A DNA stretch of 64,000 nucleotides from Bacteroidales bacterium. GTDB lineage: Bacteria > Bacteroidota > Bacteroidia > Bacteroidales > Tenuifilaceae. The stretch is taken from the NCBI GenBank assembly GCA_013141385.1, contig JABFRB010000004.1, positions 34,376-98,375 of the forward strand, read 5' to 3'. Shown here piece by piece: positions 22,886 to 61,459 of this stretch. The translations under genes and the position numbers were made by a program. Position 1 is the stretch's first letter. Every line of letters starts with the position of its first letter. A model generated the notes under the pieces. The model was not told the DNA's origin and ran no database searches. It worked only from the letters and a program-made list of their open reading frames with translations.

Positions 22886-25800
22886 CTAAACTCTATCCGT
22901 TAAATCCTTAATTCTTCTATTTATAAAATCGTAATTAAGATGAGGCCATGAATCGCTAATCAAATCCAATTGAATATCCTTTTCATCTAGTTGTGTAGTA
23001 TCGAAAAATTCATCTGGGATTTCGTCTGAAATTTTTACTGGTGATGAAGATGTTGTAAGTGTATCTATCTGATTATCTACAAACGTATTTGAATTAGAAA
23101 CACTATTCTGCATCAAATCATTAACTTCATGAGAGGTAATCCCTTGCTTAAAAAACTGACTTAAACAATCAATTATGGTTTGTTTGCTACTTTCTTTATT
23201 TCTATACAAATACACAGGGTACTCTTGCGGACGATACTTGTTCTTGTATTGATGATTCAATGCTCCAACCTGAAATAGTAAAGCAAGTTGACCTTTCGCA
23301 TTACTAATTAAGTTCCAACTTTGGTAATCGCTAAACCCTTCATCTGGTTCAAAAAGTTTCCATGTCAATCCAAGGCTGAATTCACGGTGCTTCTCCTTGG
23401 CAAGTTGCTTTACTATTTCAACCGTTGTAAATTCTGTACCACCCAAAGGAGCATCAGGGAGGTAATACTCCTGATCCATTAGGTATCCCTTCTCAATTGG
23501 GCTAATCAAAATGATATTTTGTAATTCATTGTTTACATAAGTTAGGAAAATACGATACCTCTTCCAAAGATTACCGCTATCAATATCTTTCAATGTAACC
23601 TCTACGTTATTAACCACTTTCTTCTTTTCGCACCAAGCATAAATTACATTTTGAATCTCACGATTCGTTTTTGCATCGGAATGCAGGTATTCAACCGTTT
23701 TGCAGTCTCCCTGCTCTTTAAAGCGATTTATTAAATATCGTAATCGCCTCATTTTATTTCCTTCAAGCGAGAAATTCCCAAGATCAACAATCGTTTGTAC
23801 AACACCTACGGGAGTGGAAAGCAATCCATATTTCTGTTCCAAATCGATTTTCCGTTTTCCAGAATGATCTAAATAACAAAATTGATAGCCGTTTTGACTG
23901 CAATATTTTAGGAATAGATCTATCAACTCGCTTTCACGAGACACTCCACTCTCTTTCGCCCTAAAGCTTGTAGCAAAAATGAATTGCTTATCTTTCAGAA
24001 AATGGAAAAAACACTTTTTCTTCTCAGACATAAAAAGGAAAGGCCACATTTCTGCGAGAGCCCCATCCTGATTATCATTCCCCTTGATTTCGTTAACTAA
24101 GTGAAAAAAATCGCTTGTAGGAGTGATTTCACTTTTGGCAACGATTTGATATTCGGAAAGATGCTTATTTAGGTTTTCATTACCATAATGTTTTCTTGAA
24201 AATTCTGCAAGTTTGCGTAAAGGTTGCTCTTGCTTAATGAATGGTGATTCCGATGAAGGAACAGAACACACAGATACTATCTTCTGATTGTAATCCTGAA
24301 TTAGATATTCGCCGAGATCTGAGATATTTTCGTATTCGAAGAAAATCGTTTTCGGGACGCTTCCCATGTCTTTTTCTAATTCTCTAATCAGATTCAAGGC
24401 CATGATGGAATCCATGCCGTAACTGCTAAATGAGGAGTTCTCATCAATTCTATTTTTTGGTACTCCCAAAACCTTATGAAAAACGTTTTTCAGATACTCT
24501 TTCACACGTTCTCTAAATTCATCTTCGGAAGAGAATAATTCAGTTTCATGAATATCGTTTTTACTTTGAACTTCTTTTCTCGCTTCATTCTGGGTTTCAA
24601 TTTGCTGATATGTTTCAATTTTTTTAAGAGGTTTATTGATTGTTTCTCGAATTTTGGATAATTCACCTTCCATAATAATCACATGTGCTTCATCGGATTC
24701 AAGAGCATGGTAAAAAGCTTTAATGCCTGATGAAGTATCCATAGCACTCATTCCAGTTTCATTGGCAATAGTTTCTTCGGTTTTAAAATCAATCTTCATT
24801 CCCCCTTCTTTCCATAAAGGCCAGCCAATAGATATAATTCTGTAGGATGTTATTCCTTGTTTAAAAAGGTCGTTATGATATTGGGCAAAAGCATCCATGA
24901 AAGCATTGGCGGCTGAATAATCAACCTGTCCAATATTCCCATAAGCACCAGAAACAGAAGAGAATAGAACCATAAAATCTAAATCAACATCCCTTACAGC
25001 TTCTTCGAGATTAATTACTCCTTTCACCTTTGGAGCTAACACCTCCTTAAATTCTTCTGAACTTTTATTTAAGATAAAATTATCTCTTATTACTCCTGCA
25101 CAATGGATAATTCCATTTAAACCTCCCCATTCATTTTTAATTTCTTTAACGAGTTGTTTTACCGCTTCTTTATCCTGAATATCAACTTGTTTATAAAGAA
25201 TATTCACACCTATTTTTTTGAACTCACTGAGTGCTGCCTGTTTCTCTAGGTCTAACTTCGACCTACCAGTTAAAATTAGGGTAATCCCACGTCTATTTTG
25301 TGTCAAAGGGTTTTGAGTAACTTTCGATGCTATCTCTTTAGCAAAAATAAACCCCAGACCACCGATTCCTCCTGTTATCAAATAAACACCACCCTGTTTC
25401 CAAGGAATTCTAGGGTTTTCAGAAACTTTATCTATCTCTTTAAAGGAAGCGATCAAACATTTCTCAACTCGAGAATTTGTTTCATGGAAAGATTTTTCTT
25501 CACCATTATGATAGCATATTTTAAGTTCTGAAGGACATTGGGAATTTTCCTGAAGTTTAGCAACGATTCTTTCAACAGATTCATACTCATTTATTGTGAT
25601 AACTTGCCCAAACAATTTTGGGTTTTCGAGATGAGCCGTTGCCAAAATTCCAGATAGGGCTGAGAATAATTGGTAAGTTCCACGAACAGGAACAAGAACC
25701 TGAAACAAAACAGGATATTTCTGCTTTTGTAAAAGGAGTTTTTTAATGTTCTCGAACAATTGAATGGAATATGATTCAAATAGTTCATCCATATTGGTAT

Positions 25801-28800
25801 CACTGGATTCAAAAGCGATAAAAGAAGCCTCTGGTAGCAATTGCGAGCATTGCTGAAAAAGAGTTTTATCAGGATTACACCAGAAAACTTTATGATCAGC
25901 GGAGAGTTTATTGCTTATGCTTATTTCAGGCGATATTATATCCCTTTCCTTCCAATCAGGTCTGAACATAAGAAAACCATGGGTTCCATCTGCAATAGGT
26001 TTTCTTTTTTCCTCTCTATTTCCGTTCAATACTCGGGATGAGTATCCACGCATTTTTATGCAGATTTTCTCTTTTTCATCACATAAATCGATATCCAATT
26101 TCGTTTGCTGTGAACTATGAGGTGCTATCCCCGAATTACTCGAAAAACGAATCCAAGCCCACATCGATTCTGTACATGCATCTCTTATTTCCATATTTTC
26201 AAGAGCAAAAGGTAAGAGAGGAGGAAGAATTACGCCATTCCCTGTTTTGCTGTTTTTATCCTTTTCCACTCCAAATAGACCAATAGCAGCTTGAAGTGCC
26301 GAGTCCATTATGCTGGGATGGATGGTAAATTGATGCTTTGTATGAATTATAGAGGAAGGAAGTTGTAATCTAACCACAACCTCATGTTCTCCATTAGGAT
26401 TTAACCCTTTAAAAATATTTTCAATAGCTCGGAAGGAATTACCATATGAGAAACCCATTTTTTCAAATGCTTCGTAATACTCCGTTGAACTATATCCATT
26501 TTGATTGTCAATATCACTGTTTTCCGATAAACTCTTTATTCTATTTCGTAAAACATCGATATCTAAAAACTTGTCTGATTTACTTTCTACATATTGATCA
26601 TCAAAAATTATGCATACCATTCCTTCGCTGTGAACAAGAGGCTCTCCCAGAGATTCTTCCGTAAAGATTTGGAATGGAATATTTATATTAGAATTTTGCG
26701 TGGTATTAAATTGATTATTAAATGCATCGTCCAATTTTTCAGGAAAAATACGAATATGAACCATTTTAGGGTTCATTACAGCTATGGGACGAATCCATAC
26801 TACATTTTTAAGAAATACTAATGGCTTTTCAGCAATTTCTCCTAACGTTTGTCTAACTGCTTCATAGGCCATTTCAAGATATGCTACACCAGGCAAAATT
26901 CTTTCACCCTTTACCTGATGATCTTTAAGAAAGAATTCCTCGCCTGTAAAAAAGGAACTATACCGCTGGGAAAAGAAATCTGATTTGTTTTGGTGAATCA
27001 AAGGATGCAACTCAGGCAAACTTTTCCGATCTGCATTTGAGTAATTTACTAAACTATCTGTTTTAGCAGTTTGTCTGCTTGCAGTAAACCAATATCTCTC
27101 CTTTGCAAAAGGGTATGTCGGAAGGCTAATACGTTGGGGTTTAAAATTATCATAGAGTCTAATCCAATCCAAATTCAAACCTTTTACCCACAAGTCTAGT
27201 ATTCTAAAGAATTTTTTCTGAATAATCCATTTATCAATTGTTTCTTGTAAGTCTGTATCAATACTAAAGAGAGCCAATGTTTCTTTATTGCGTTTTACTT
27301 GTCCCTGATAAAAGCCCTCAATTTGCTTCTCCCCATTGATAAAAGCCCTCAGTTTCTCAACCAGCTCAACAACAGAACTAACTACAAAACCTAAGCGTTC
27401 CTCCATTGCCTCTCTGCCAACTTGAAGTGTATAGGCCAATTCATACAAATCAATACCGCTTTGCGATTCTGCATTTTGTGATTCCAAATGACTCTTGCAT
27501 GTCAGAAAATCTAATAAATCATTCGCTTTTTTTAACAGTTGTTCTCTTGTTTTAGCTGAAAGAGGTATAATGATATCGCCGCTTATTCTGGTTTCTGTAT
27601 GTCTGAATTTTTGATTCAATGAGGGTATGAATTCCTTAACAACTATGTGTGCATTGGTTCCGCTATGACCAAAAGAATTTAGAGCCGCCATACGTGCTGA
27701 TCCATTTGGGGATATCCAATTGGATTTCTGTAGATTAATGTAAAACGGAGAATCCTTGAATTCAATCAAAGGATTGATAGATTTAAAATTCAATAACTTA
27801 GGAATCTGTTTGTATTGCATTGACAGCAGAATTTTTATCAACCCTGCAACTCCTGCTGCTGCTGAAGTATGTCCGATGTGCGATTTTGCACTTCCAACTG
27901 CACAATACTCCTGTTTATCAGTAAATTTATTAAAAGCTCTTACCAAGGCATTCGCCTCCACAGGATCTCCCAATTTGGTTCCTGTACCGTGAGCCTCAAC
28001 GTATGTGATTTGCTCAGAGTTAATATTGAATTTTCGATAAATATCAGTAATCAATTCTTCTTGGGCTGTTCCATTTGGAGCAGTAATTCCATTGCTTGCC
28101 CCATCCTGATTAATTCCTGTTCCGCAAATTACTCCATAAATATGATCGCCAGAAGCAACAACATCCTCTAAACGTTTTAAGACAACCAATCCTATTCCTT
28201 CCGAGATAATAGTGCCATCCCCTGCATTTTCAAAAGTATAACAGCGTCCACTTGTGGAGAGCATTTCAATCTCATCTAAATGAATTTGAGTATTATGATC
28301 CATGCTTGCGTGAACTCCGCCTGCTAATGCAAGATCTGTTTCATAATTCCTGAGACTTTCACAGGCCAAATGAATTGCTACTCCCGATGAAGAACAACCC
28401 GTATTGACAATAAAAGCAGGACCATTTAGATTAATAAAATATGATAAACGGGAAGCTATGATTGCATCTGAATAGCCTGTAAAACTTTCACCAATATATC
28501 CCGATGGTTCTGCACCAATAAAAACTCCAGTTTTAGATCCCGAAAGATCTTTTGGATTATAACCTGCATCTTCAATAGCCTTCCAACCTTCCTGTAAAAC
28601 CAAACGTTGGTGAGGGTTCATTGACACCGCTTCTCTAGGAGAAATATTGAAAAACAGGGGATCAAAACAATCCCTATCCTTAAGAATACCTCCCCATTTA
28701 CAACGCGTTTTCCCGGATTGCTTTTCAGTGCTGTAATAAAGACTTTGATCTAAATAATGAGCCGGAAGTTCCTCAACACCGTCAATTCCTTGAATTAAAT

Positions 28801-31800
28801 TTTCCCAGAATTCTTTTACATTTTCTGCTTTTGGAAACTGACCCGACATTCCAATCACAGCAATTTCCACATTTTTTGGATCACAAATTTTGGATTCATC
28901 CGTCAATTCATGGTTGAGAACCACCTGCTGTGATGATGTAATACGATCATCATCAATCCATTCATTCTTAATTTTTGAAATATACTTACTTAATCTGTTT
29001 ACTGATGAATATTCGAAAATAACAGCAGTATTCAGAGAAAGAGACAGTTTCTTATTAAGTTGATCAATAAAATTAGTCCCCGAAAGCGAATCTATGCCGT
29101 AATCTGAAAAAGCAATATCGGGATCGATATTTTCAGGGGGCATCTTCAAAGTAGCAGTAAGGCAACTAAGAATAGAAGTCAGAATATATTCCTTTATATT
29201 TTGTGGGGGAATAACTGTCTGAGTCGGTTTACAAAGCAAATCGTTATTACTCTTGTTTACTGAAGTGATTTCACCTACTGATTGTGATGATAATATTTCA
29301 TACGAATCACGACTATCGGTCAGTACAAAGAGCTTTTCTTTTTTGCAATTAATCAATGATTCTGATGATGGCGATACTTTCATGCATAAAACTTGCTGAA
29401 GTCTACCAACCTGCAATTCGTTTATAAAGTGTTCAAAGCATACAAAACCATCCAGATCTTCCAAAGCATAAATATTTTCAGCTGATTTTTTCTCGATCCG
29501 ATGAAGAGATTTTTTCCAAAAACCCCAGTTAATTATTCCTACTGGAAATTTAGCACTACTTCTGAGATATTGCACAAGACAATCAGCATGAGTAATACCG
29601 CTAGCATATGCTGGATACTTTGCTGCTCCAGTAAAAGAATAGGCTTGACCAGAAGAGAAATAACACATAAAATCAAGAGATTCATACTCCAATGCTTTAA
29701 AAAAAATCCAACTTCCCAGAGTCTTCACATTTGAGACTTCCATGAATTCTCTTTCCGATATTTGATCGAGAAGACATTCATGACCATCGGCCATACCAGA
29801 ATAAATAGCTCCATTAATTTTATGGTATTTATTTTTAATAACCTGTATAGCCCGCTGCATCGAATCCAAATCTGTTAAGTCTCCCTCAACATATAATGGC
29901 TTTTCGGCATATCCTTCAAACTGTTGGAGTGCTACTTGTATTTTCTCAGTCTTATACTCGCTCCGTCCTATCCAAACTACAATTGCATTATACTTTTGAA
30001 TTAAATGATGTGTAATAATTTGACCAACGGTACCACTTCCACCTACTAGGAGATACACTCCTTTTTGTCGAAAAGGAGATGGAGCAATTGAATTCCAGCA
30101 CAACTTGTAAAAAACCTGACGGTATCGCTTCCCTGATCTAATTTTATAAAGTTCACCTCGATTGGAAGGTGGTTCGCTGATAATAGTAGAAAATAAATTT
30201 TCATGTTTTGACTGATCCTTTAAATCTTCAATGGACAAATCAAGATTTCTCACTTTGAATGAGTAGTTTCCCTGAGCCAGAGAGTAAGCAATACCAGATA
30301 AGCCAGAACCCCAAGAATTACTCTGAGAATTGTCTACGGAATAGTGATCTACTGAAAGAATATAAGTGTCGATTCTTTCCTGTATCTTTTGTTTAAGGCT
30401 TTTTATGAGGCGCAATAATTGTATTTCGTTGCGTTCCTGATGGGATTTCAGCTCTTGTAATGAATCAAATTCATGTGCCTCCTCAAACGATGATAGAAAA
30501 TAACATGTATCAATTCTATCCATTTTTCCAATGCAGGTCTGGAATCCTTCCTGATCTTGAATGCCACGATACCACTCATTTTCGGAAATCTGTTTTGTTT
30601 CATTTGCCAAGCGGACAATAAGCACTTTGCAATTCTTATCCTTTTCGTAATACCTCAGAATTGTTTTTTCGAATTCTAATGAAGAACCACAGCAGACAAT
30701 CAAAATTGCATTTTGTATTATTGGGCTTTGCTTTAAAACCTTCTCTTCTTCCCATTTACAGACATAACTCATTCCATCCCAATATCTTTTGGGTGTCTCC
30801 TTTAAGAGCGTTTTAGCGGATGCAACAACAGAATTGCCAGACTCTAAACTTTCATTCTTTGTAACCGTTTCGGCATTATCATTATCGAGCCAATACCTCA
30901 CTTTAGCAAAAGGATAACAAGGTAGGCTAATACGTTTGGGTTTGTGATTGCGATAAAGTTTATTCCAATCCAAATCCATACCCAAAACCCAGATTTTTAG
31001 AAGTTTTGATAGTTTCTTCTGCTCAAGCAATTTATCGATGACAATTCCTTTTACCTCCTCGTCCTCGCCAATGAAATTTATAGCCTCTTTATTACGTTTC
31101 GACACCCCCTGATAAAACCACTCGATATCCTGCTCTCCCTGAATATATGATTGAAGTTTTTCGGTCAGTTCTGCCATAGTACTAACTAAAAAGCCCAAAC
31201 GTTCTTCCATTGCCTCTCTACCTATTTGCAAAGTATATGCAATCTCAGCAAGATTGAGATATGATTCTTCCCTACGAATGAAAATCGATAAATCCTTAAC
31301 CACCTGCCTTAACTGTTCAGGGGATTTGGCAGATAGAGGGATAATGAACTGAGATTTTATTTTATGTACTTGCTTTTCAGTATGATTCTCATCCGAAAAT
31401 AAATTGGGATGAGTCGTTTGTTGTTGAAATTCCTCGTCATCTTTGCTTGCAGAAACTGATATGTCAACATATTCTTGCACAACAAGATGGGCGTTAGTAC
31501 CGCTGAAACCGAAGGAACTAATAGCCGCCTGACGTCTTCGATCACTCTCTAATTTCCATTCCTGCAACTGATTATTGATATAAAAAGGACTATCCTTCAG
31601 AACTATATGTTCATTTAATTTTTCAAAATTAATGGTTGGTGGTAACTGCTTGTGTTTCAATGCCAATAGGAGTTTGATAAACCCAGAAATTCCAGCCGCA
31701 GATAAACAATGGCCTATATTACTCTTTACAGAACCTAAGGCACAATAACTATTTTTACAAGTATATTTTTTGAAGGCCTCTTTCAGTCCTTCAATCTCAA

Positions 31801-46800: not shown

Positions 46801-49800
46801 TTCCAAGCTGATTCCAGTCCTTTTCGCATATCGCCCGCTCAATTAATTTTTTTCCAGTCTGCCCTTGCAATAAGGACGGAATGTTTGCGTTAGAGGAACT
46901 GATCTGCCCTGACCAGACATTGGGATCATCTTTACCGTTCAACCACAGTTTCAGTTTGCATTGCAAATCATGCCAGTCTTTAACTTTGATTGCCAAACGC
47001 TGCTTCATGGCTGTTCTACCAACCTGCCAACTATAAATCGCATCAATAAAATTAACATCTCCAGCATTCTTTTCTGCCCAATCTATCACCTGCTGAGCAT
47101 AAACTTGTAAGCGTTCACGATCTACCGCCGAAAGAACAAACAAGTAACTATCGCATGACCAAGTATTTATTTCTGAATGTTTATTAATGACATATTCCTG
47201 CACAACAACATGTGCATTTGCTCCACCAGATCCAAAACTGCTCACCCCTGCCACTCGTGGATACTTTGCATCCCAATTCTGATGTCTTTCCTGAATATAA
47301 AAAGGAGTATCCTCTAAAATGATCCTAGGATTTAATTGCGTGAAATTTAAATTTGCAGGCAATTGCCTATATTTCAAACTCAAAATTACTTTGAGTAAAC
47401 CAGTAATCCCAGCGGCTGATTCAAGATGTCCCATATTACTCTTAATGGAACCTATCCCACATTTGGATTGACCCTCTGGTTTCAAATGAGACCATGCAGT
47501 TTTAATACCTTCTACTTCAATTGGATCCCCTAAAGGAGTACCTGTACCATGGGCTTCTATATAAGTAATGTCATTTGCTGATACTCCTGCACTCCTCCAT
47601 GCTGCAACCAACAACTCACCTTGCTTTTGAGGATTAGGAACAGTTAAACCAGCCGCTAATCCTCCATGATTTATTGCACTACCCTTAATCACAGCATAAA
47701 TTTGATTTCGATCCCGAACAGCATCGGATAGCGGCTTGAGTAACAACATTACAGCTCCCTCTGAACGCACATATCCATTTGCCTGAGAATCAAAAACCTT
47801 GCACCTTGCATCTGGAGATAGCATGCCGGCTTTATAATATGCAATGGAAAGTTCAGGATAACATATGAAATTTACTCCGCCTACAAATGCCATTGAACAT
47901 TCGCCTGCACGCAAGGATTGAATAGCCGTATGTAAGGCCACCAGAGAAGATGAGCAAGCAGTATCAATAAGCAAACTTGGACCTGCAAAATCGAAAAAAT
48001 ATGAGATCCTGTTTGCTAAAATGGCAAGTGAGGATCCAATTGCATGATGAGCCTCAGTCTCTAATTTTGCATCTTGAATCAGTCTACCATAGTCGCTATT
48101 GCTAGCTCCAATAAAAACACCAGTACTTGTATTTTTCAAGGCAGATGGTAACAGAGTTGCATTTTCAATGCATGACCAAGTTAATTCAAGCAGAATACGT
48201 TGTTGGGGATCAGTAATTTGCGCTTCAGCAGGAGAAATGCGAAAAAAAGAGGCATCAAAAGTATCCCCATCTTTGATAAAACCGCCCCTATCAATACCTG
48301 ATTTGTCAGCACTCATGGGCCATGCTCCTCTTTCATTGGGATAAGAACTGATAACAGAGCACCCTGAAGCGAGCATCTGCCATAATTGATCCTGTGTTTC
48401 AATACCGCCAGGGAGTCTACAGGAAACCCCGATAATAGCAATATCAGATGAAAGATTTTTTTCAATATTTTCATCAAAAGCAACAACTTGCCTGGGTAGT
48501 TTTTTTTCTGTCTGTTTTATATGATTTCCAGTTATTGTGATTGAACTCGTTGAATGAAGAAGAACTATCAAATAGTCGATCACTTTACGCATACTATTAT
48601 ATTGGAAAAAAAATCCAGGATGCAATTCCCGATTAAATTTTGCTGCAATTTGCTGTTGCAAGACTAGCAAATCAGATGAGTTAAGTCCCATCTCCATAAG
48701 AGGGTGCTCGAGGTCTAATGCTTTTTCAGGCGTATTCAGCAAAATGTTTACAATGCCTTCCAAAAAAAGACGAATGTGCTCTGGATTTATAGGAACTTGC
48801 GAATTATTTTCATCCATTTGTTTTTCGCCTGTATCGCATCTTTGATTCCATCTAACCCTTTGGTAAACATTATATTCTACTAAAACACCATAACCTTGAT
48901 TAGCATTATCACGTGGTCTATAATTGGCCAAAGGTTTGACAATTTTTGCACCGTGCATATAATGAAAGGCTAATATAGGATCCTGCTTGTACCCCTCTTG
49001 TTGAATATATTGCTCAAAAGATTGGTTTCTTTCAACATCATAATTTTTGCACAGAGTCACACCAATAATCTTAGTAATCCCTACCATAAGACTGCATCTC
49101 TGCAACATAAACTCTAGCAATTGGTCGCCATAACCAAAATTCTGAACATTTGGATTGATATTGACTGCCAGCAATTGAATAATAGAGCCTGATGCCTGAT
49201 GCAATTCCTGAATATTTGTAGCATTATATTTTTCTAACGCATCAGTATTAGCAATACGCTGACTGTAGATTACACCCAAAACCCGACCCTCCTTTACCAA
49301 AACAAATTGGCCTTGCGGATATTGTTGCAGGCGCATGCGAATTTGTTGATGGGGGGATCGTAATTGTTTTGGCCAGCAGAGTTCTTCCAACTGATAAAGA
49401 CTTTCCAAATCTTCCATGGCGGCAAAACGGATTATATAATCCCGTTTAGTCAAGTGATGAAGGCTTATTCTGCAAAAATCTGCCATTTTCGGATAACGTT
49501 TCGCAGGATATGAGTTAAACAATCCTGCATTTGCAGCCAGAGTTATAAAAACTTCGGCAGTGATTAAGTATTGGTGTGAAAAATAGTGTATTGTATCGAA
49601 ATAGAAGTTTTCTGATTTGTCTATATTCCTATGAACAATTTGGGCTGGTAAAGCATGCGCCTCTAAAATAAGTAAATCCGATCCAAAGATATTTTGAGCC
49701 CAAGAAGACAAGTGTCTCTTCCAATGACTTAAAACTGTAAAACTACTGAGCAACTGACCATGCTGATCAAGGTAGTAACTGGGATGTTCACCTGCTAGAA

Positions 49801-50974: not shown

Positions 50975-51113
50975 TTTATTTACAATGTAGTATCATAATG
51001 GTAATTAGTGTCTGCAAGAAAACCACAGATAACCTTAATCAGAGGGATTGTAAAGAAATCTGCACTTTGAAAAATCTGAGGTTTCTTTATCGGGATCGAA
51101 ACTATATTTGGTT

Positions 51114-51126
51114 TGTCCAATGGACA
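51114..51126. promoter_or_regulatory. Perfect palindrome TGTCCA-A-TGGACA upstream of PKS1
   Basis: A 6+1+6 palindrome 140 bp upstream of the PKS1 start. Half-sites of the same sequence (ATGGACA / TGTCCAT) occur as the arms of an inverted repeat upstream of the HMGS gene (63590-63604 and 63797-63811). It could be an operator shared by the two transcription units; no regulator gene is in the window. Confidence 0.35.
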
Positions 51127-51248
51127 CTTGGTTTTAGAGATATAATAATAACTGGCTAATTTGAGATTCGAGATGAAAAATGTAAGATTATATCAATTCA
51201 TAGAAAACTTGCAATTTTTAACATATGGATTTTTAGAGACATAGAATT

Positions 51249-51281
51249 ATTCCTCAAAAAAATATGAGTTTTTTGAGGAAT
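51249..51281. terminator. 13-bp stem hairpin
   Basis: ATTCCTCAAAAAA pairs perfectly with TTTTTTGAGGAAT around a 7-nt loop. In the minus direction the stem ends in A/T pairs, giving a weak intrinsic-terminator look. It may end or attenuate transcripts arriving from the AT/tRNA region before PKS1. Confidence 0.45.
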
Positions 51282-51418
51282 TATCTTTTCTTGCAGATAC
51301 TAATTATCATTTGAACAACAGATATTTTCATTCAAATGCTAAAGTTTGGATGATCCAATTCAAACGTGAGCAGGGACAACAGTGTTCTAACCAAAGGCAT
51401 CAATGGAATATCAAAAGA

Positions 51419-51548
51419 GGGTATCCAAAAAACCCATTTTTTTGAAGATCCTCATTGCGAACGAATAGAAGCAATCTGCTGATCAGAAGAAGATTGTCTC
51501 TGTCGTTCCTACTTCGCAATGATGGTTTTCTAGGTTTTTTGAATACCC
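51419..51548. repeat. ~130-bp palindromic element with terminal inverted repeats
   Basis: GGGTATCCAAAAAACC at the left pairs imperfectly with GGTTTTTTGAATACCC at the right. Internal arms TCATTGCGAA / TTCGCAATGA and GAAGCAATCT / AGATTGTCTC also pair. The fold and the ATTGCGA / TCGCAAT content resemble dispersed hairpin repeats common in bacterial intergenic DNA. There is no coding potential. Confidence 0.65.
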
Positions 51549-51582
51549 TCCATATTCTGGAAGAAAAACTACTTTCTATGAT

Positions 51583-51650
51583 TTATTCCACAGGCTTCAC
51601 TTCCCTTAAATCGAAATAACCGTTATACCCCTTTAAATAGATCGCTATTG
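51583..51650 (-). pseudogene. Relic of the 3' end of a third trans-AT gene
   Basis: The minus-strand frame ending at the TAA at 51583-51585 encodes KGYNGYFDLREVKPVE. That is the conserved C-terminus of both intact malonyl-AT genes (51829-53028 and 58046-59257). Upstream similarity is lost within about 20-25 codons. It begins just 3' of tRNA copy 1. It is evidence of a third AT copy or a recombination scar. Confidence 0.8.
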
Positions 51651-51674
51651 ATAAAACTTTTAGCACATTTTTTG

Positions 51675-51747
51675 AGGCACCGAGTGGATTCGAACCACTG
51701 AAATAAGGTCTTGCGAACCTTTCCCTTAACCACTTGAGTACGGCGCC
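51675..51747 (-). tRNA. tRNA-Cys(GCA), copy 1, with C33
   Basis: 73 nt, full cloverleaf. The acceptor is GGCGCCG/CGGTGCC with a G4-U69 wobble. The D-arm has G18G19 and an A13-A22 mismatch as in E. coli tRNA-Cys. The anticodon stem is AAGGT/ACCTT, the T-arm AGTGG/CCACT and the discriminator U73. The loop is T-C-G-C-A-A-G, so the anticodon is GCA and position 33 is C instead of U. CCA is not encoded. It lies between the AT gene and an AT relic, co-directional with both. Confidence 0.88.
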
Positions 51748-51753
51748 TTTTTT

Positions 51754-51773
51754 CATTGCCCGCTAGGGCAATG
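51754..51773. repeat. Perfect 8-bp-stem hairpin just 5' of tRNA copy 1
   Basis: CATTGCCC and GGGCAATG flank a 4-nt loop, seven bases from the first base of the tRNA. No T-run follows on the minus strand, so it is not an obvious terminator. It could help processing of the tRNA from an operon transcript. Confidence 0.5.
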
Positions 51774-51828
51774 GGAAGTAACAAAAAGTAATGATTGCTT
51801 ACTTCATTTATTTATGATGAAATCTAAA

Positions 51829-53028
51829 CTACTTTACTGGTTTCACCTCCCTAAGATCGAAGTACCCATTGTAACCTTTCATATAGACTGCTGCCCTATG
51901 ACCAAATAGCACTACCGCCTCGGTACGGGTTTCTAACTCCGTATCGTAGAGTTCTGAGGTTACCTTAGTTCCTATTGGATAGGTTTTGTTCCAGTTCTCA
52001 ACCATACTTTGCGGATCTTGCTGTCCTTTTTGCTTTGATGCAGGCTTTTCTTTCTTGGATTCCAACTCCTTGTTCTTTGCCGATGCCTCAACTTTGGGAT
52101 TATCCAATACATTATCAAGGCTTTGCTCCTTATTAGATTCGATTTCCTGCTTGGGTTGATCCTTGGTAGGTTTTACGTTTGGAACGTAATCTTTCTTAAT
52201 CGTTCTAATTAACTTAGTAAGAACATCTCCCACTCCAAGTTCCTCAATTTCCATCTCACCCTGATCCAATATATATGTAATACTATCCGACCACCTTACA
52301 CAGTTGGATATCTGATCTATTAGGTTTTGAGCAACCTTTTCTGGCTCATATGGTTTACCTGTAACATTTGCAATTACTGGTATTTCTGGTTTAGAAAATT
52401 TTGTTTTCTTTACGTGTTTTCCAAACTCAGCTTCAGCCTCTTTCATATAACGTGAGTGAAACGCCCCGCTAGTATTCAATGGAATGAACATAGTATTTGC
52501 TTTTTGAAAAAACGCCTGCGAATTATTTACTTCTTCTTTTAAACCGGAAATTACGATTTGATTGGGAGAATTATGATTAGCAATATCAATAGTTGTAAGA
52601 TTAGCTTCTTTCAAAATTTCCTGAATTTGCTTTTCAGAAGAGTTTATAATTGCTGCCATCCCACCATTCTTAGCTTGGCTCATTAGTTCACCTCTCTTTT
52701 TAACCAGTTTAAGACCATCCTCAAAGCTAAATACTCCAGCTGCCTGTAATGCATTATACTCACCTAAACTATGACCTGCTACAAAATCGGGTTTTTTTCC
52801 ATCATCCTTAATTTTTTTTTGATAGGACAAAGCATTCACTACATACAGTGCTGGCTGAGTATACTGGGTTTGACCTAATTTTTGTTCGGGATCGTTTAGG
52901 CAAAGTTCTTTAATTGAATATCCCAAAATATCATCTGCCTGTTTAGTCAACTCTGCAAAATCATCAAATAGAGTCCCTCCCATTCCTTTTTTTTGTGATC
53001 CTTGGCCTGGAAATACGTATGTTTTCAT
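51829..53028 (-). CDS. trans-acting malonyl-CoA acyltransferase with C-terminal extension (copy A)
   Basis: FabD-fold AT: FPGQGSQ at the N-terminus, the nucleophile in GHSLGEYNAL, QSAKNGG-like core, and GAFHSRYM with the second catalytic His. It should load malonyl onto the AT-less modules. I place the start at the ATG at 53028; an upstream in-frame TTG would add three residues, but the paralogous copy starts exactly here. The catalytic domain (~280 aa) is followed by a charged, low-complexity linker. A conserved ~60-residue tail ends in GYNGYFDLREVKP and is shared with copy B. This tail is not part of standard trans-ATs; it may be a docking domain. It follows the decarboxylating KS by about 45 bp. 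Confidence 0.93.
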   Translation of the reverse strand: MKTYVFPGQGSQKKGMGGTLFDDFAELTKQADDILGYSIKELCLNDPEQKLGQTQYTQPALYVVNALSYQKKIKDDGKKPDFVAGHSLGEYNALQAAGVFSFEDGLKLVKKRGELMSQAKNGGMAAIINSSEKQIQEILKEANLTTIDIANHNSPNQIVISGLKEEVNNSQAFFQKANTMFIPLNTSGAFHSRYMKEAEAEFGKHVKKTKFSKPEIPVIANVTGKPYEPEKVAQNLIDQISNCVRWSDSITYILDQGEMEIEELGVGDVLTKLIRTIKKDYVPNVKPTKDQPKQEIESNKEQSLDNVLDNPKVEASAKNKELESKKEKPASKQKGQQDPQSMVENWNKTYPIGTKVTSELYDTELETRTEAVVLFGHRAAVYMKGYNGYFDLREVKPVK

Positions 53029-53074
53029 AATTTTCAATTTATTTAATCGAGTTATTTTCTCATTAATACAAATC

Positions 53075-54355
53075 TTATTCTGTTCTATGTTTTAATACTA
53101 TAGATGTGTTTATTCCACCAAAACCAAAAGAATTACTCATGGCAACATCAATTCGGTGATTAATCGCTTCGACACCACAGAATTTTAGATCTTTACGAAT
53201 TGGCTCTTCCAAATTTTTATTTGGGTGAATAAACCCTTCTCTCATCTGTAATACAGTAGCTATTGCCTCAACTATTCCTGCAGAATATAAACAATGACCA
53301 GTTAAGCCTTTAGTAGCATTTAACCACAAATCCGAAGTGTGGTTTCCGAATACATGGCTAATGGCCTCTGCCTCTGTTATATCTCCCAAAGATGATGAAC
53401 TTCCATGTGTATTTAAATAATCAACCTCTGAGGCTGAAATTCCGCTCTGGGCTAAAGCCGAGAGCATAGCTTTTATTTCACCATTTACATTAGGGTTTGA
53501 TGAACTATTACTATCAAGGTTTATTGAACTACCTATGATTTCGGCTTGGAATGGAACCCCTCTTTGGGCTGCACTTGATTCAGACTCAAGAATAACACAT
53601 GCACAAGCTTGTCCATATATAAATCCTTCATGCTGAGTATCAAATGGACGACAAGCTTTATCTGGCTGATTAGAGTATTTTTTTCCTCCCATGGCTCCAA
53701 TATTAATAAATCCTTGAATATCCATAGGGGACAGATCAGCAACAATACCAACCACTAAACATACATCTACCAAACCGAAAAGAACTTGCTGATAACCTTT
53801 AATTATACCCACATTTCCAGTTGCAGAGGCACCACCAACAACAAATCCTTCGCCTTTGATGTCGAATAACTCACTTAGAATCCCCACTTGATTTGTCTCT
53901 AAAAACTCAAGCGCATATCGGGGGGAAAGATACTCAGGGTTTTCCCTAAATTTTGGAATTAAATTGTATTGGTAGTTTTGAGTACCGTTTTGCCCGGCTA
54001 TAATCAGTCCTATTCTTTCTGGTAAAGTTTTGTTGCTGAATAACTGTGCATTTTGCCATGCTTCTAATGCAGATATTATGGATGTTCGAATAGCAAAAGG
54101 TGCTCTTTGTCCTAACCGCTTAGCATCAGCCAATGTTTTTTCAGGTACGCCTTGAAAACGATTTAGTAATTCTGAAAAGGAAAAATTCTGAATTTCAGCA
54201 GCAATATCAACTGATATCTTTGGCTCTTTTATGCTTGTCGCTTGCTTAATACCGGATTTCCCATTTTTCAAAGAATTACAAAATATAGAAACATTATCAC
54301 CTATGGAAGAAACTATTCCCATCCCGGTAATTCCGACTTTATTTCTCATCAACAT
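53075..54355 (-). CDS. Decarboxylating ketosynthase of the HMGS beta-branching cassette (PksF-like)
   Basis: 426 aa with a FabF-like KS fold. The nucleophile position reads GGASATGN, Ser in place of Cys. The His motifs remain as NTHGSSS and TKGLTGH. Cys-to-Ser KS enzymes in beta-branching cassettes decarboxylate malonyl-ACP to acetyl-ACP for the HMG synthase. The C-terminus has SNSFGFGGINTS. The first ATG has a GAGG at good spacing; a second ATG two codons later is possible. It lies between the ACP donor gene and AT copy A, the classic cassette neighbours. Confidence 0.92.
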   Translation of the reverse strand: MLMRNKVGITGMGIVSSIGDNVSIFCNSLKNGKSGIKQATSIKEPKISVDIAAEIQNFSFSELLNRFQGVPEKTLADAKRLGQRAPFAIRTSIISALEAWQNAQLFSNKTLPERIGLIIAGQNGTQNYQYNLIPKFRENPEYLSPRYALEFLETNQVGILSELFDIKGEGFVVGGASATGNVGIIKGYQQVLFGLVDVCLVVGIVADLSPMDIQGFINIGAMGGKKYSNQPDKACRPFDTQHEGFIYGQACACVILESESSAAQRGVPFQAEIIGSSINLDSNSSSNPNVNGEIKAMLSALAQSGISASEVDYLNTHGSSSSLGDITEAEAISHVFGNHTSDLWLNATKGLTGHCLYSAGIVEAIATVLQMREGFIHPNKNLEEPIRKDLKFCGVEAINHRIDVAMSNSFGFGGINTSIVLKHRTE

Positions 54356-54428
54356 TATTTACCTCGTATTACTTAAAATAGTTAAGGCTAATCTGTACTC
54401 TATTGCAATTGATGGTAAATCGTAATTC

Positions 54429-54677
54429 TTATTTATTGGCATAATTTTCGACTAGTACATCAACCATTCCCTCGATGTTGCTGACCTGTGCAAAACTCAT
54501 TAATGGTATTTTCAGGCCTAGCTCTTCCATTGACATCGTAACGACTTCCATCCGATCGATTGAGTTTGCCCCCAGATCTTTTAATGCTTTTTCAATAGTA
54601 ATCATCTCAGGTTTTACATCTGGAAGAACCTCCATGATAACATTTTTAACTACTCCGTAAACGTGTTCTTTTGACAT
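54429..54677 (-). CDS. Discrete acyl carrier protein for beta-branching (AcpK-like)
   Basis: 82 aa. The phosphopantetheine Ser is in LGANSIDRMEVV. It begins MSKEH and is typical of the stand-alone ACP that carries malonyl/acetyl between the decarboxylating KS and the HMG synthase. It lies directly upstream of that KS and directly downstream of tRNA-Cys copy 2. Its 5' leader and first four codons recur as relics between the tRNA copies upstream. There is no obvious Shine-Dalgarno (AAGAAGAAG before the ATG). Confidence 0.92.
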   Translation of the reverse strand: MSKEHVYGVVKNVIMEVLPDVKPEMITIEKALKDLGANSIDRMEVVTMSMEELGLKIPLMSFAQVSNIEGMVDVLVENYANK

Positions 54678-54720
54678 AATTCTTCTTCTTTTAGATTAAT
54701 AATTTCAGTAAATTCCTTCG

Positions 54721-54792
54721 AGGCGCCGAGTGGATTCGAACCACTGTATAAGGTCTTGCAAACCTTTCCCTTAGCCACTTGAGTACGGCACC
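54721..54792 (-). tRNA. tRNA-Cys(GCA), copy 2, the only one with canonical U33
   Basis: 72 nt. The acceptor is GGTGCCG/CGGCGCC (U3-G70 wobble, G4-C69). The anticodon loop is T-T-G-C-A-A-G, so U33 is present. The variable region has 4 nt, the T-arm matches the other copies, and the discriminator is U73. The D-loop has C at position 20 where the others have T. It sits immediately 5' of the ACP gene. Confidence 0.9.
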
Positions 54793-54799
54793 TTACTTA

Positions 54800-54856
54800 T
54801 TACTGTTTACTAGAGCAAAGAAGAATATCAAAGTCAATAAAACACTCCTTTGACAT
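54800..54856 (-). CDS. 18-codon ORF (MSKECFID...), ACP-start relic or leader peptide
   Basis: ATG at 54856, TAA at 54800-54802. The first four residues and the leader match the ACP gene start. It contains two Cys codons (positions 5 and 14) and lies between tRNA copies 3 and 2. Its twin at 54981-55037 has the same length, with four base differences and two amino-acid changes. Probably a remnant of an ACP duplication; a Cys-sensing leader peptide is a less likely alternative. Confidence 0.4.
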   Translation of the reverse strand: MSKECFIDFDILLCSSKQ

Positions 54857-54901
54857 AATTCTCTCTTCCTTTAAGAATGCTGTATTTAAAGATTACTCTT
54901 G

Positions 54902-54973
54902 AGGCACCGAGTGGATTCGAACCACTGCATAAGGTCTTGCGAACCTTTCCCTTAACCACTTGAGTACGGTGCC
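54902..54973 (-). tRNA. tRNA-Cys(GCA), copy 3, with C33
   Basis: 72 nt. The acceptor is GGCACCG/CGGTGCC, in which A4-U69 replaces the G4-C69 or G4-U69 of other copies, a structure-preserving change. The anticodon loop is T-C-G-C-A-A-G. The variable region has 4 nt (ATGC), and the discriminator is U73. First unit of the tandem duplication. Confidence 0.88.
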
Positions 54974-54980
54974 TTGTTTA

Positions 54981-55037
54981 TTACTGTTTACTAGAGCAAA
55001 GGAGAGTATCTAGGTCAATAAAACACTCCTTTGACAT
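54981..55037 (-). CDS. 18-codon ORF twin (MSKECFID...), ACP-start relic or leader peptide
   Basis: ATG at 55037, TAA at 54981-54983, between tRNA copies 4 and 3. It has the same frame and length as the ORF at 54800-54856, with both Cys codons kept. The preserved frame is notable but is based on only two copies. Confidence 0.38.
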   Translation of the reverse strand: MSKECFIDLDTLLCSSKQ

Positions 55038-55082
55038 AACTCTCTCTTTCTTTAAGAATGCTGTATTTAAAGATTACTCTTG

Positions 55083-55154
55083 AGGCACCGAGTGGATTCG
55101 AACCACTGCATAAGGTCTTGCGAACCTTTCCCTTAACCACTTGAGTACGGTGCC
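55083..55154 (-). tRNA. tRNA-Cys(GCA), copy 4, with C33
   Basis: 72 nt, identical in sequence to copy 3 within the mature tRNA as far as I can read. The acceptor is GGCACCG/CGGTGCC, the loop T-C-G-C-A-A-G, and the discriminator U73. Second unit of the tandem duplication. Confidence 0.88.
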
Positions 55155-55258
55155 TTTTTTTTTGTAACTGATGGTTTTAACAATGAGGTATATCAAATTC
55201 GTAAAAATGACATAATTCCCTCTTTTTTTAATTATTCTGTACTAATAGACTTTTATTG
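55155..55258 (-). other. Spacer between tRNA copies 4 and 5 with decayed ACP leader
   Basis: It carries a GACATAATTCCCTCTTT segment like the leader of the ACP gene, and an ATG whose frame stops after six codons (MSFLRI). It looks like a third, more decayed ACP-start relic. Confidence 0.5.
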
Positions 55259-55331
55259 AGGCGCCGAGTGGATTCGAACCACTGAAATAAGGTCTTGCGA
55301 ACCTTTCCCTTAACCACTTGAGTACGGCGCC
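55259..55331 (-). tRNA. tRNA-Cys(GCA), copy 5, with C33
   Basis: 73 nt. The acceptor GGCGCCG/CGGCGCC is fully Watson-Crick with G4-C69. The loop is T-C-G-C-A-A-G, the variable region has 5 nt (ATTTC), and the discriminator is U73. It lies 64 bp downstream of the metallo-hydrolase gene. Confidence 0.88.
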
Positions 55332-55395
55332 TTTCTTTTTTATTAGTGATATGGTTTACATCACTTTTTACGGTAATCAAATATTATATAAATAC

Positions 55396-56130
55396 TTAAC
55401 AAAAATCAAAAAATTTAAATATGTTTTGCCCTTTTCTTAAACGATATTTAGCAAAGTCATTTTCGTTTTTAAATTGCAGATATATATTATCCTTTAATAG
55501 AAGTGAAAACTTTTGACCTGGCGGTTTCCCGTAATTATGGCCAGGGAAAACATTCGTTTCTGGTTTAAGCCTGCTTTTTAGATGCTCCAAACTTGCCCAC
55601 ATAGTGTGGGCGGCTTGTGTACCAGAACACAAGCCACAACCTTCTGCAAACAGGGTATCGCCAGTAAATAAATTATCTCCTACTAGGTAACAAACACTTC
55701 CAGATGTATGGCCTGGCGTAAGTATAGGTTGAATCAGCATATTACCAACTGGCCATGGGATTTCATCTATACCAACCAATTGCTGAGCATAAAATCCTGA
55801 TGTCACTATTTCTTCATTAGACATCCATATTGGACAATGGTATTTTGCTGCTAGGGGCTTGGCTAAATGAATGTGGTCAGGATGGGAATGAGTTAGTAAA
55901 ATTCCACTCAGACTTGTTTGAGTACTCGCTAAGGCCTGATCTATTTTGTCCATCTCCCACGCTGGATCTACAATAACAGATTGATTGTTAACAGGATCAA
56001 TTACTAGATAATTGTAATTGATCATAAACATACATGTCATTTTCAACACAACAACTTGTGGTACAATCTCACAACACTCTATACCTCTATAATCTTTATT
56101 CATTATTAAATCGCCAAGTTTCATTAACAT
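55396..56130 (-). CDS. Metallo-beta-lactamase-fold acyl hydrolase (BaeB/PksB-like)
   Basis: 244 aa with the metal motif THSHPDHIHL (HxHxDH), a later GHTSGS and FTGDTLF, and PGHNYG near the C-terminus: a glyoxalase-II-like hydrolase. In trans-AT clusters such proteins (BaeB) hydrolyse stalled acyl chains from ACPs. It is flanked by tRNA-Cys copies 6 (upstream) and 5 (downstream), all co-directional. The first ATG follows an AT-rich leader with no Shine-Dalgarno; the ATG at residue 10 (MNKDYRG) is an equally possible start. An unusual extra ~25 residues precede the fold. Confidence 0.88.
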   Translation of the reverse strand: MLMKLGDLIMNKDYRGIECCEIVPQVVVLKMTCMFMINYNYLVIDPVNNQSVIVDPAWEMDKIDQALASTQTSLSGILLTHSHPDHIHLAKPLAAKYHCPIWMSNEEIVTSGFYAQQLVGIDEIPWPVGNMLIQPILTPGHTSGSVCYLVGDNLFTGDTLFAEGCGLCSGTQAAHTMWASLEHLKSRLKPETNVFPGHNYGKPPGQKFSLLLKDNIYLQFKNENDFAKYRLRKGQNIFKFFDFC

Positions 56131-56170
56131 CTAAATTAATCTGTTTAAACTTGTTAACGCATTTTTTTAG

Positions 56171-56243
56171 AGGCACCGAGTGGATTCGAACCACTGAAAT
56201 AAGGTCTTGCGAACCTTTCCCTTAACCACTTGAGTACGGTGCC
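56171..56243 (-). tRNA. tRNA-Cys(GCA), copy 6, with C33
   Basis: 73 nt. The acceptor is GGCACCG/CGGTGCC with A4-U69. The loop is T-C-G-C-A-A-G, the variable region is ATTTC, the T-arm AGTGG/CCACT, and the discriminator U73. First of the series in transcription order, 40 bp upstream of the metallo-hydrolase ATG. Confidence 0.88.
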
Positions 56244-56668: not shown

Positions 56669-57934
56669 TTACTGCTTAAAGAAACGTTTGTTATATGCGG
56701 CAAAACGCTCACGAACCTGTTCCTCTTTCAACCCGAATTGCTCCAAACTATATTGGTGCTTGCCGTGCTTATGTTGGCAATTTTCAGCAAGGAATAATTT
56801 CATCTGCTGTTCGACAGAAGATGACCATGTTAGTCCGCACTGATCATACAAATCGCGCATGGTGGCAATTGGGTCAACAACCAGATCTTTATAATTTCTG
56901 TCAATAAAACGCACTTTAGAATCCGGGTTAGATTCAGCCTGTTTGCGGTCTTCCATGGCCTGATCAATCCATAATCCAATCAAATCCAAAGTGAATTGTC
57001 CCACTTTTTCTGGAAGAACCTTATCATGAAAAATTGACCAAGATGTCATAAACAGACTGGCTGCTGATGGAATCGTTTCTATTGGATCACGGTGTAGATG
57101 GATAATACAGGCATCAGGGTAGACCTGCATCAAAGATTTCAGTGAACGAAGATGCCCCGGGGCTTTCAATACCCACCTCTCCCCACGATTCCGGTATTGA
57201 AGCAATTGAAGTTGTTTTTTATGTCGTTCATAAAGAGGTCGCAGAGGTTGCTTATTCAACCATTGATAATAGTCTGGCAGATCGAACTCTACCATCAAAG
57301 AATCGCTTATTAAATCATTCTCGAAGAGAAGGATGCATTCATCAGGCAGGCGCGCTCCAAGTTCATGAATCGCCTTGAGCTGTGGGGCAATCCTGTATAC
57401 CATGCTGAGTTTTTTCTCTGCTTTCTGAATACGCTGGTCAGTTGCATCGGTCTCCTTCTCTGGTGGCGGACATGGACGCTCCATTTCCCAGTACTTCGGA
57501 CTCCTCAGTCTTGTATCCTGAGCAAATAATCGTTGAAGAAGCGTTGTTCCTGTTCTCGGCAGACCTGTTATAAAAATTGGCCGTTCGATGGGCTGCTCGA
57601 GAATATCAGGAGAGGCGGCAAGCGTTGCGTCTATCTGTAAACGATTCGAAACACGCTCCATGATCAAATTTCGAAAGGCTATTCGCCCCATAGGCTTAAA
57701 ACTGGGCTGCTGATTTGCGCTTTGCACTAGCACTTCAAGTGGTTCTCGAAATGAATCATCTATGATATTATTGATCTCGGAGTTCACCATAGCCTTCTGA
57801 ATTATGGTTTCGGCATTCGCATCACCTACACGTATACCGATAGAACGGAGCAACCGCCCCACCATGTTGAAGATGCTAAATATTAATAAAATTATTCTAT
57901 CTGACGGTTTCACTGACGGCTGTTTATTCTCCAT
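56669..57934 (-). CDS. PAPS-dependent sulfotransferase
   Basis: 421 aa, Sulfotransfer family. The 5'-phosphosulfate loop is FITGLPRTGTTLLQRLF, and the 3'-phosphate-binding segment is IIHLHRDPIETIPS. A second conserved region is WVLKAPGHLRSL. It should transfer sulfate from PAPS to a hydroxyl or similar group. Within this cluster it may tailor the polyketide, or make a sulfate leaving group. Base composition and codon use look markedly less AT-rich than its neighbours, and gaps of 110 bp upstream and 425 bp downstream separate it, which suggests later acquisition. It is not fused to a thioesterase as in curacin-type ST-TE pairs. Confidence 0.9.
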   Translation of the reverse strand: MENKQPSVKPSDRIILLIFSIFNMVGRLLRSIGIRVGDANAETIIQKAMVNSEINNIIDDSFREPLEVLVQSANQQPSFKPMGRIAFRNLIMERVSNRLQIDATLAASPDILEQPIERPIFITGLPRTGTTLLQRLFAQDTRLRSPKYWEMERPCPPPEKETDATDQRIQKAEKKLSMVYRIAPQLKAIHELGARLPDECILLFENDLISDSLMVEFDLPDYYQWLNKQPLRPLYERHKKQLQLLQYRNRGERWVLKAPGHLRSLKSLMQVYPDACIIHLHRDPIETIPSAASLFMTSWSIFHDKVLPEKVGQFTLDLIGLWIDQAMEDRKQAESNPDSKVRFIDRNYKDLVVDPIATMRDLYDQCGLTWSSSVEQQMKLFLAENCQHKHGKHQYSLEQFGLKEEQVRERFAAYNKRFFKQ

Positions 57935-60583: not shown

Positions 60584-60707
60584 TGAAATATTCGTAAATC
60601 GTAATGTTTTTTCCAAAACCAAAACAACTATTAACTTCTTGTATTTATCTAACTCTATATCTGAATGAAATTAAAAACATTGTCATGCTTTTTATTATAT
60701 CCTCAAA

Positions 60708-61457: not shown

Positions 61458-61459
61458 AT

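Follow-up and report, generated by a model that had tools for sequence, protein, structure and literature searches.

In a Bacteroidales genome we analyzed a window of 64,000 nucleotides (assembly GCA_013141385.1, contig JABFRB010000004.1, positions 34,376 to 98,375) that encodes a polyketide synthase (PKS) cluster. One giant synthase protein of this cluster, PKS1, ends in a domain of unknown function (DUF), the next, PKS2, opens with a pyridoxal-phosphate (PLP)-dependent lyase domain, referred to as SH, and six tRNA-Cys genes lie among the other genes of the same cluster. We consider it likely, at odds of roughly two in three, that the DUF takes cysteine from Cys-tRNA and that the tRNA-Cys genes of the cluster, five of which lack U33, are a supply dedicated to the synthase rather than to the ribosome. 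As the pairing of the DUF with tRNA-Cys recurs in related clusters of other bacteria, it is likely the polyketide, and not protein, that receives cysteine, and thereby sulfur, from the cluster tRNAs. The choice of donor, the order of the steps and the nature of the product, be it a thiol or a persulfide, are what we infer from the fold, the motif, the neighboring domains and the linkage.

The DUF-SH pair and the tRNA-Cys genes of the window

An earlier note on this DNA, made from the sequence alone, had read the end of PKS1 as a DUF2156/LPG-synthase-C-like domain and the start of the following protein as a PLP beta-eliminating lyase. Both assignments hold, as the DUF matches PF09924 with an E-value of 4e-21 (75.7 bits, against a gathering cut-off of 27.5) and the N-terminus of PKS2 matches PF01212 with an E-value of 1e-26. 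Together with the PF09924 match, the model predicted for the DUF has the fold of the aminoacyl-tRNA-dependent transferases (L-PGS, A-PGS and FemX), a fold whose absence the note had set down as a point against its proposal. The motif N9240-x-Q-[FY]-K9244 is invariant, with K294 kept in 38 of 38; this lysine is of the catalytic type seen in N-x-x-[FY]-K, and it was matched to K329 of DhpH-C by the spacing of the motif rather than by superposition of DhpH-C. The suspicion that the domain belongs to the same family as its leinamycin counterpart is likewise borne out, given that the domain string of LnmJ (Q8GGP2) in PMC3870968 ends in DUF2156-PLP3, and that LnmK-family genes adjoin DUF relatives in three annotated actinobacterial plasmid clusters.

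For the SH domain, sequence comparison with solved structures ranks 9cen_A first ('Polyketide Synthase Protein', E-value of 1e-28), ahead of tryptophanases and tyrosine phenol-lyases. We take 9cen_A to be an SH structure of the leinamycin family and, judging from the family, the lysine of the S-L-S-K-D motif to be the PLP-binding residue. In the window, the PF09924 domain and the PF01212 domain that directly follows it are split over two abutting genes. The same genome (G000) holds a second DUF-SH pair at C12:81345-82151 (L034), arranged as ACP-DUF-SH-KS (acyl carrier protein, ACP; ketosynthase, KS) in a single frame of 5,004 amino acids that sits close to a contig end. By analogy with the clusters of F. 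imtechensis and Sporocytophaga, the giant cluster of the window probably begins with this pair, although the contigs are not joined. No tRNA was found in the 32 kb read at this locus, where contig C12 ends near the DUF. One label of the earlier note has to be replaced, namely 'ACP6' for the carrier before the DUF, as fragment scans reveal eight carrier domains in PKS1, of which this carrier is the eighth. Among homologous synthases, three (P0001, P0002 and P0020) contain two DUF domains and one SH domain each; the proteins P0001-P0024 come from searches limited by protein length and should not be taken as a census.

As for the tRNA genes, ARAGORN and Rfam agree on the six tRNA-Cys genes that had been claimed for the cluster, all of which lie on the strand of the PKS genes. 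What had been missed is that in five of the six, C33 replaces U33, the nucleotide with a role in the U-turn and in A-site binding. According to Rfam, the window genome contains 48 tRNA genes, all of them identified, with seven for tRNA-Cys, that is, the six in the cluster and a seventh at C21:92117. As no other anticodon exceeds three copies in this genome and six of its seven tRNA-Cys genes are found here, their number in the cluster goes beyond chance. The possibility that the tRNAs are ARAGORN artefacts was ruled out, since Rfam confirms the six genes of the window and the stems are intact, with all 801 bracketed pairs being standard in 39 cluster tRNAs (by fixed position, two T.T mismatches appear, at acceptor pair 6 in G460 and at 49-65 in G462). 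Three of the window copies (54720-55154) are spaced at exactly 181 bp with similar intervening sequence, and look as they would after tandem duplication of a tRNA plus its flank.

Cysteine tRNAs in other DUF-SH clusters

Scanning genome contigs with an alignment of the DUF gave 105 relatives, and 80 loci were kept. The whole genomes behind these loci (40 and 38, with one in common, hence 77 distinct genomes; loci L057 and L059 were left out) were searched with a tRNA-Cys model. Within about 10 kb of the DUF loci, tRNA-Cys genes were found at two loci, both from Acidobacteriota, namely L097 (one gene) and L109 (two genes). The whole-genome search revealed extra tRNA-Cys genes inside a cluster or at its edge in at least 19 of the 77 genomes. 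In the Bacteroidota, these are F. marina, F. imtechensis, a Sporocytophaga metagenome-assembled genome (MAG), a Bacteroidales MAG and eight genomes of the Aquimarina sp. AU58 genus (G019, G023, G024, G460-G463 and G466). The Acidobacteriota contribute G021 and G027, and the Pseudomonadota Caballeronia udeis (G004), Paraburkholderia humisilvae (G028), Steroidobacter gossypii (G029), Peristeroidobacter (G017) and Steroidobacter agaridevorans (G455). With the window genome and G674, cluster tRNA-Cys genes are found in 21 genomes. The search for tRNA-Cys near other DUF-SH clusters that the earlier note had proposed thus came out in its favor in several lineages, and against it in the remaining 58 genomes, in which no linked extra tRNA-Cys was seen among the matches listed.

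Most of the cluster tRNA-Cys genes sit inside the gene cluster on the PKS strand, and in 13 of the 21 genomes they share one contig with the DUF. In G015 and G020, for which the whole run was read, the cluster begins with the DUF-SH synthase, and 77-84 kb further on, on the same strand, the tRNAs are placed between an acyltransferase (AT) gene and a metallo-hydrolase gene. Linkage is weakest in three genomes, namely G017 and G455, where the tRNAs lie a few kb beyond the last recognized cluster gene on the opposite strand, and G028, where the tRNA-Cys is on the strand opposite to the DUF. In the parts of the clusters read for G012, G022, G030 and G033, no tRNA was found. Other tRNA-like genes were also noted. 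In Caballeronia udeis, a tRNA with a Cys-tRNA-like body and the anticodon GTA, read as tRNA-Tyr, lies close to the cluster tRNA-Cys on the opposite strand (G004:C16:24477-24547, L249). In two Fulvivirga genomes, a pair of tRNA-like genes called tRNA-??? lies upstream of the DUF-SH gene (L081:1606-1759 and L106:7554-7706), with anticodon loops of 8 bases that are read as CTCTTCAT/CTCTTCAC and CTCTGGGA; these resemble tRNAs for Glu and Pro that carry an additional base following position 33.

All 45 cluster tRNA-Cys genes of the 21 genomes carry the GCA anticodon (by ARAGORN), U73 and G2-C71, and 36 of them C3-G70, which are the cysteine identity elements given for bacteria in PMC9976931. Position 33, by contrast with other tRNA-Cys genes, is often changed: it is C, G or A in 26 of the 45 genes, spread over 15 of the 21 genomes, while U33 is present in 67 of 68 tRNA-Cys genes found elsewhere. 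The sole exception among the 68, L132 (G021:C58:18612), has A33 and is near-identical to the cluster copy L097. It lies 0.9 kb short of the end of its contig, where no PKS gene was seen, and could be a fragment of a broken DUF-SH cluster. It should be noted that p-values on these counts overstate independence, as many copies are near-identical (41 distinct sequences among the 68 and 35 among the 45). As described in PMC5372741, U33 is part of the U-turn that serves A-site binding. A further change concerns the T-stem pair 51-63, which PMC4052509 describes as an EF-Tu-sensitive position, and which is U-A in all 37 Bacteroidota cluster copies versus C-G in 18 of 18 others, possibly through a single inherited change. 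The three Acidobacteriota cluster copies (L097 and L109) are the only cluster tRNAs without GG in the D loop and have the T-loop TGCAATT. These two traits are common to the tRNA-Cys in the tRNA array of the same genome, whereas the loss of U33 is not. The tRNA arrays of two Acidobacteriota genomes, at L129:232-7103 and L131:6653-10665, include tRNA-Cys with this T-loop.

The history of the cluster tRNAs was considered from pairwise identities and not from a tree. The Bacteroidota copies form one family, with 78-100% identity to the window copies and 64-82% to the other tRNA-Cys of their own genomes. Those of the Acidobacteriota match a tRNA-Cys from the tRNA array of the respective genome at 90-92% identity and the window copies at 58-60%. 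For G004, G028 and G029, identity to the other tRNA-Cys of the genome is 87-90%. G017 and G455 have a fifth type in common, with 69% identity to either. On these sequence comparisons, we would read the pattern as at least four recruitments of tRNA-Cys into DUF-SH clusters.

Controls and the source of the cysteine

Two taxonomic controls were considered. Of the 66 genomes in the genus of G462, nine contain the DUF, and a second tRNA-Cys (E<=1e-16) is present in all nine genomes with the DUF versus one of 57 without it (Fisher p 3e-10), although these nine are not nine events, as one inherited cluster is common to all. The exception, G639, has a second tRNA-Cys with U33 and no cluster gene in the 14 kb read. 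The test cannot part the DUF from the rest of the cluster, since only two genomes of this genus without the DUF carry this type of HMG-CoA-synthase-like gene (HMGS), namely G670 with one tRNA-Cys and G639 with two. In the order of the window genome, the DUF was found in one of 393 genomes (G000), which, among the matches listed, is also the only one with tRNA-Cys above 79 bits; most other genomes have 0-3 tRNA-Cys matches listed and G375 has seven weaker ones.

A number of observations weigh against a synthase fed by its own tRNAs and need to be considered here. They include the 58 genomes without a listed linked copy. Among these are three Kordia genomes, whose clusters have nearly all other genes in common with it and keep the order DUF-SH, HMGS, AT, metallo-hydrolase, KS, AT with no tRNA between. 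Actinobacterial clusters of the leinamycin type have no tRNA-Cys within 10 kb of the DUF, in a search that was not exhaustive, and in the 11 Actinomycetota genomes compared, which also count among the 58, tRNA-Cys lies on contigs other than that of the DUF. Even where cluster tRNAs are present, the DUF is on another contig in eight of the 21 genomes, with the tRNA contig holding other cluster genes. Among actinobacterial plasmid clusters, no tRNA was found within 20 kb in four that contain the DUF, and thus the plasmid control, made to see whether the tRNAs accompany HMGS cassettes at large and in which none of nine HMGS clusters without the DUF has a tRNA (9 of 17 records, 41 kb each, 20 kb either way), does not separate clusters with the DUF from those without it. 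Clusters lacking tRNA genes would have to draw on the general Cys-tRNA pool. Moreover, two Massilia genomes have a second tRNA-Cys, with U33, away from cluster genes, and several Actinomycetota have two or three ordinary tRNA-Cys, so that an extra tRNA-Cys alone proves little outside clusters. Finally, PMC8479088 puts the preference of SH domains for thiocysteine adducts at 50- to 106-fold and proposes free thiocysteine as the source.

An alternative is a conjugate addition in which the DUF joins free cysteine, or free thiocysteine, to the enoyl-ACP, with no tRNA involved and the tRNA-Cys genes being incidental passengers. In its essentials this is the proposal published for the leinamycin family (PMC8479088, PMC7618002), and the genomes and DUF-containing plasmid clusters without linked tRNA-Cys, as well as the SH preference for thiocysteine adducts, are in line with it. 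We nonetheless consider it unlikely, as extra tRNA-Cys genes are tied to DUF-SH clusters in several lineages, at differing positions and apparently from separate sources, and as the fold and the motif of the DUF are those of aminoacyl-tRNA transferases. The cysteinyl-tRNA-dependent sulfur insertion put forward in the earlier note thus gains from the leinamycin-type DUF-SH pair, the transferase fold and the recurrent linkage, and loses from the many DUF genomes in which linked tRNA-Cys is lacking.

The tRNAs themselves raise further objections to a reserved supply. U33 is kept in all four copies of F. imtechensis and in all five cluster tRNAs of the Pseudomonadota, and eight non-Cys tRNAs in the two Acidobacteriota arrays also lack U33. 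In addition, since the Bacteroidota tRNAs are one family, neither their 37 copies nor the genus test can be counted as independent events. The copies might merely top up translation, during PKS production or stress, or be scars of integrating elements that use tRNA genes, and the retained U33 as well as the close relatives of the Acidobacteriota cluster tRNAs in the arrays there would agree with this. Such an origin appears improbable, however, when one considers the replaced position 33 and the fixed 51-63 pair in tRNAs that keep their cysteine identity, the placement of most copies within the gene cluster on the PKS strand, and that in the window genome only tRNA-Cys exceeds three copies.

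In the tRNA-dependent route that we favor, the housekeeping cysteinyl-tRNA synthetase (CysRS) would charge the cluster tRNAs, as every one of them retains the GCA anticodon and U73. Once charged, they would be read poorly during translation owing to the loss of U33 and the altered T-stem pair 51-63. The DUF would then transfer the cysteinyl group onto the chain carried by the neighboring ACP; from the module order KS-DH-KR-ACP-DUF (DH, dehydratase; KR, ketoreductase), this chain is predicted to be either an enoyl or a beta-hydroxyacyl thioester. An S-cysteinyl adduct at the beta carbon would result. The thiol might add directly (thia-Michael) while the amino acid is still on the tRNA, or the beta-hydroxyl might be esterified first, with elimination and thiol addition following as an exchange; as GNAT-type enzymes transfer the acyl group, the route through the ester is as open as direct addition. 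In the last step, the SH lyase would cut the C-S bond of the cysteine and leave -SH, or -SSH if the tRNA bears cysteine persulfide. According to PMC5660078, E. coli CysRS loads tRNA with cysteine persulfides and polysulfides at over 80%. A persulfidated Cys-tRNA donor is therefore possible, given that SH prefers thiocysteine adducts and that the E. coli enzyme reportedly makes the tRNA-bound persulfide. With somewhat less confidence than for the window, we also hold it probable that DUF-SH synthases in general are tRNA-fed, with the DUF acting as a transferase of cysteine, or persulfidated cysteine, from tRNA to the ACP-bound chain, and that tRNA-Cys genes, many without U33, were repeatedly recruited in several phyla as non-ribosomal sulfur donors.

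Neighboring genes and known systems

The features of the window are summarized in Table 1. The six tRNA-Cys genes, at 51674-56243, are interspersed with AT, KS, ACP and metallo-hydrolase genes, and upstream of them lie a sulfotransferase gene, two AT genes, two enoyl-CoA hydratase-like (ECH) genes and HMGS. The free-standing KS is presumably a member of the HMGS (beta-branching) cassette. The AprA-like start of PKS1 suggests an unusual starter unit. Between PKS2 and the next PKS gene, a nonribosomal peptide synthetase (NRPS) protein with adenylation, carrier and condensation domains is encoded at 3105-6506.

Table 1 Features of the cluster in the window (positions refer to the window).
Feature	Position	Strand	Evidence or remark
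PKS2, 5,372 aa	6767-22885	-	SH lyase domain first, then KS domains
SH domain core	22151-22822	-	PF01212 Beta_elim_lyase, PLP lyase; S-L-S-K-D motif
PKS1, 9,362 aa	22886-50974	-	Open frame; AprA-like methyltransferase start, modules without AT domains, end KS-DH-KR-ACP-DUF
DUF domain, PKS1 C-terminus	23204-23932	-	PF09924 LPG_synthase_C / DUF2156
ACP directly before DUF	24302-24499	-	PF00550; PKS1 residues 8826-8891
PKS1 start: AprA-like N-terminal, winged-helix and methyltransferase region	47975-50974		PF23526, PF23589, PF23525
tRNA-Cys(GCA), C33	51674-51747	-	ARAGORN and Rfam
Free-standing AT	51829-53037	-	PF00698
Free-standing KS	53075-54355	-	
Free-standing ACP	54429-54677	-	PF00550
tRNA-Cys(GCA), U33 (sole U33 copy of the six)	54720-54792	-	ARAGORN and Rfam
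tRNA-Cys(GCA), C33	54901-54973	-	ARAGORN and Rfam
tRNA-Cys(GCA), C33	55082-55154	-	ARAGORN and Rfam
tRNA-Cys(GCA), C33	55258-55331	-	ARAGORN and Rfam
Metallo-beta-lactamase-fold hydrolase	55396-56130	-	PF00753
tRNA-Cys(GCA), C33	56170-56243	-	ARAGORN and Rfam
Sulfotransferase-family protein	56669-57934	-	PF13469
Free-standing AT	58046-59257	-	PF00698
Free-standing AT	59618-60622	-	PF00698; relatives adjoin tRNA-Cys genes in many other clusters
Two ECH genes	60708-61475, 61460-62242	-	
HMGS, beta-branching cassette	62233-63489	-	tblastn to annotated HMGS genes

In all 14 clusters of the Bacteroidota type that have tRNAs, the metallo-hydrolase gene is preceded by a tRNA-Cys at a distance of no more than about 250 bases. 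This placement could mean that Cys-tRNA is used by the cluster through something other than the DUF, for example as a substrate of the hydrolase or in a regulatory sensor of cysteine charging. We regard this as the least probable of the alternatives, as the hydrolase is found at the same place in Kordia without a tRNA, next to the Acidobacteriota and Pseudomonadota tRNAs no match to the hydrolase was seen, and it is the DUF, with its aminoacyl-tRNA-transferase fold, that these clusters share.

DUF-SH synthases, the DUF2156 naming, aminoacyl-tRNA transferases in natural products, dedicated cell-wall tRNAs and additions of the PacB type are already known. In the open-licence literature, with most subscription papers outside this scope, no paper was found that ties the DUF to tRNA or tRNA-Cys genes to DUF-SH clusters. 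A term search found 'tRNA' absent from the main texts of PMC8479088, PMC7618002 and PMC3870968. Where PMC8479088 (2021) and PMC7618002 (2024) deal with the role of the leinamycin-family DUF in sulfur insertion, they describe it as hypothesized or proposed, with no demonstrated catalytic role. If our reading is true, a Cys-tRNA donor would give the DUF a concrete function and a source of activated cysteine, and would link the primary translation machinery to polyketide assembly. Delivery by tRNA could be reconciled with the SH preference for thiocysteine through tRNA-bound cysteine persulfide, as described in PMC5660078, and tRNA-Cys genes with altered anticodon loops would serve as a genome-mining mark for sulfur-bearing polyketides.

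Of the known systems, the leinamycin-family synthases (LnmJ, GnmT and WsmR) are alike in placing DUF2156/PF09924 and then a PLP beta-eliminating lyase after an ACP, and in combining free-standing ATs with an HMGS cassette; the window differs in that the DUF closes PKS1 while SH opens PKS2, and in carrying six tRNA-Cys genes. The lysyl- and alanyl-phosphatidylglycerol (LPG/APG) synthases (MprF C-domain) and the transferases of the FemX/PacB/DhpH type share with the DUF the double-GNAT-like fold, the conserved N..[FY]K motif and a likewise conserved M-x-R-L-R helix. PacB catalyzes aminoacyl-tRNA-dependent addition to a growing NRPS chain, and its substrate is carrier-bound. Unlike these enzymes, the DUF of the window forms part of a PKS, where it adjoins an ACP and has a C-S lyase as its partner, and its predicted outcome is sulfur insertion rather than a lasting aminoacyl ester or amide. 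In the PEARL pathway to 3-thiaglutamate, TglB likewise uses Cys-tRNA(Cys) as a cysteine donor for a natural product (PMC12945691, PMC9016710), but TglB is LanB-like and acts with a peptide scaffold, and no cluster-encoded tRNA genes were seen for it. A parallel on the side of the tRNA is the non-proteinogenic tRNA-Gly of Staphylococcus aureus that supplies FemXAB, for which PMC4052509 describes extra copies that keep their identity and have altered features thought to bar use by the ribosome, these being weak EF-Tu pairs and loss of G18G19 there, versus the loss of U33 and the changed 51-63 pair here.

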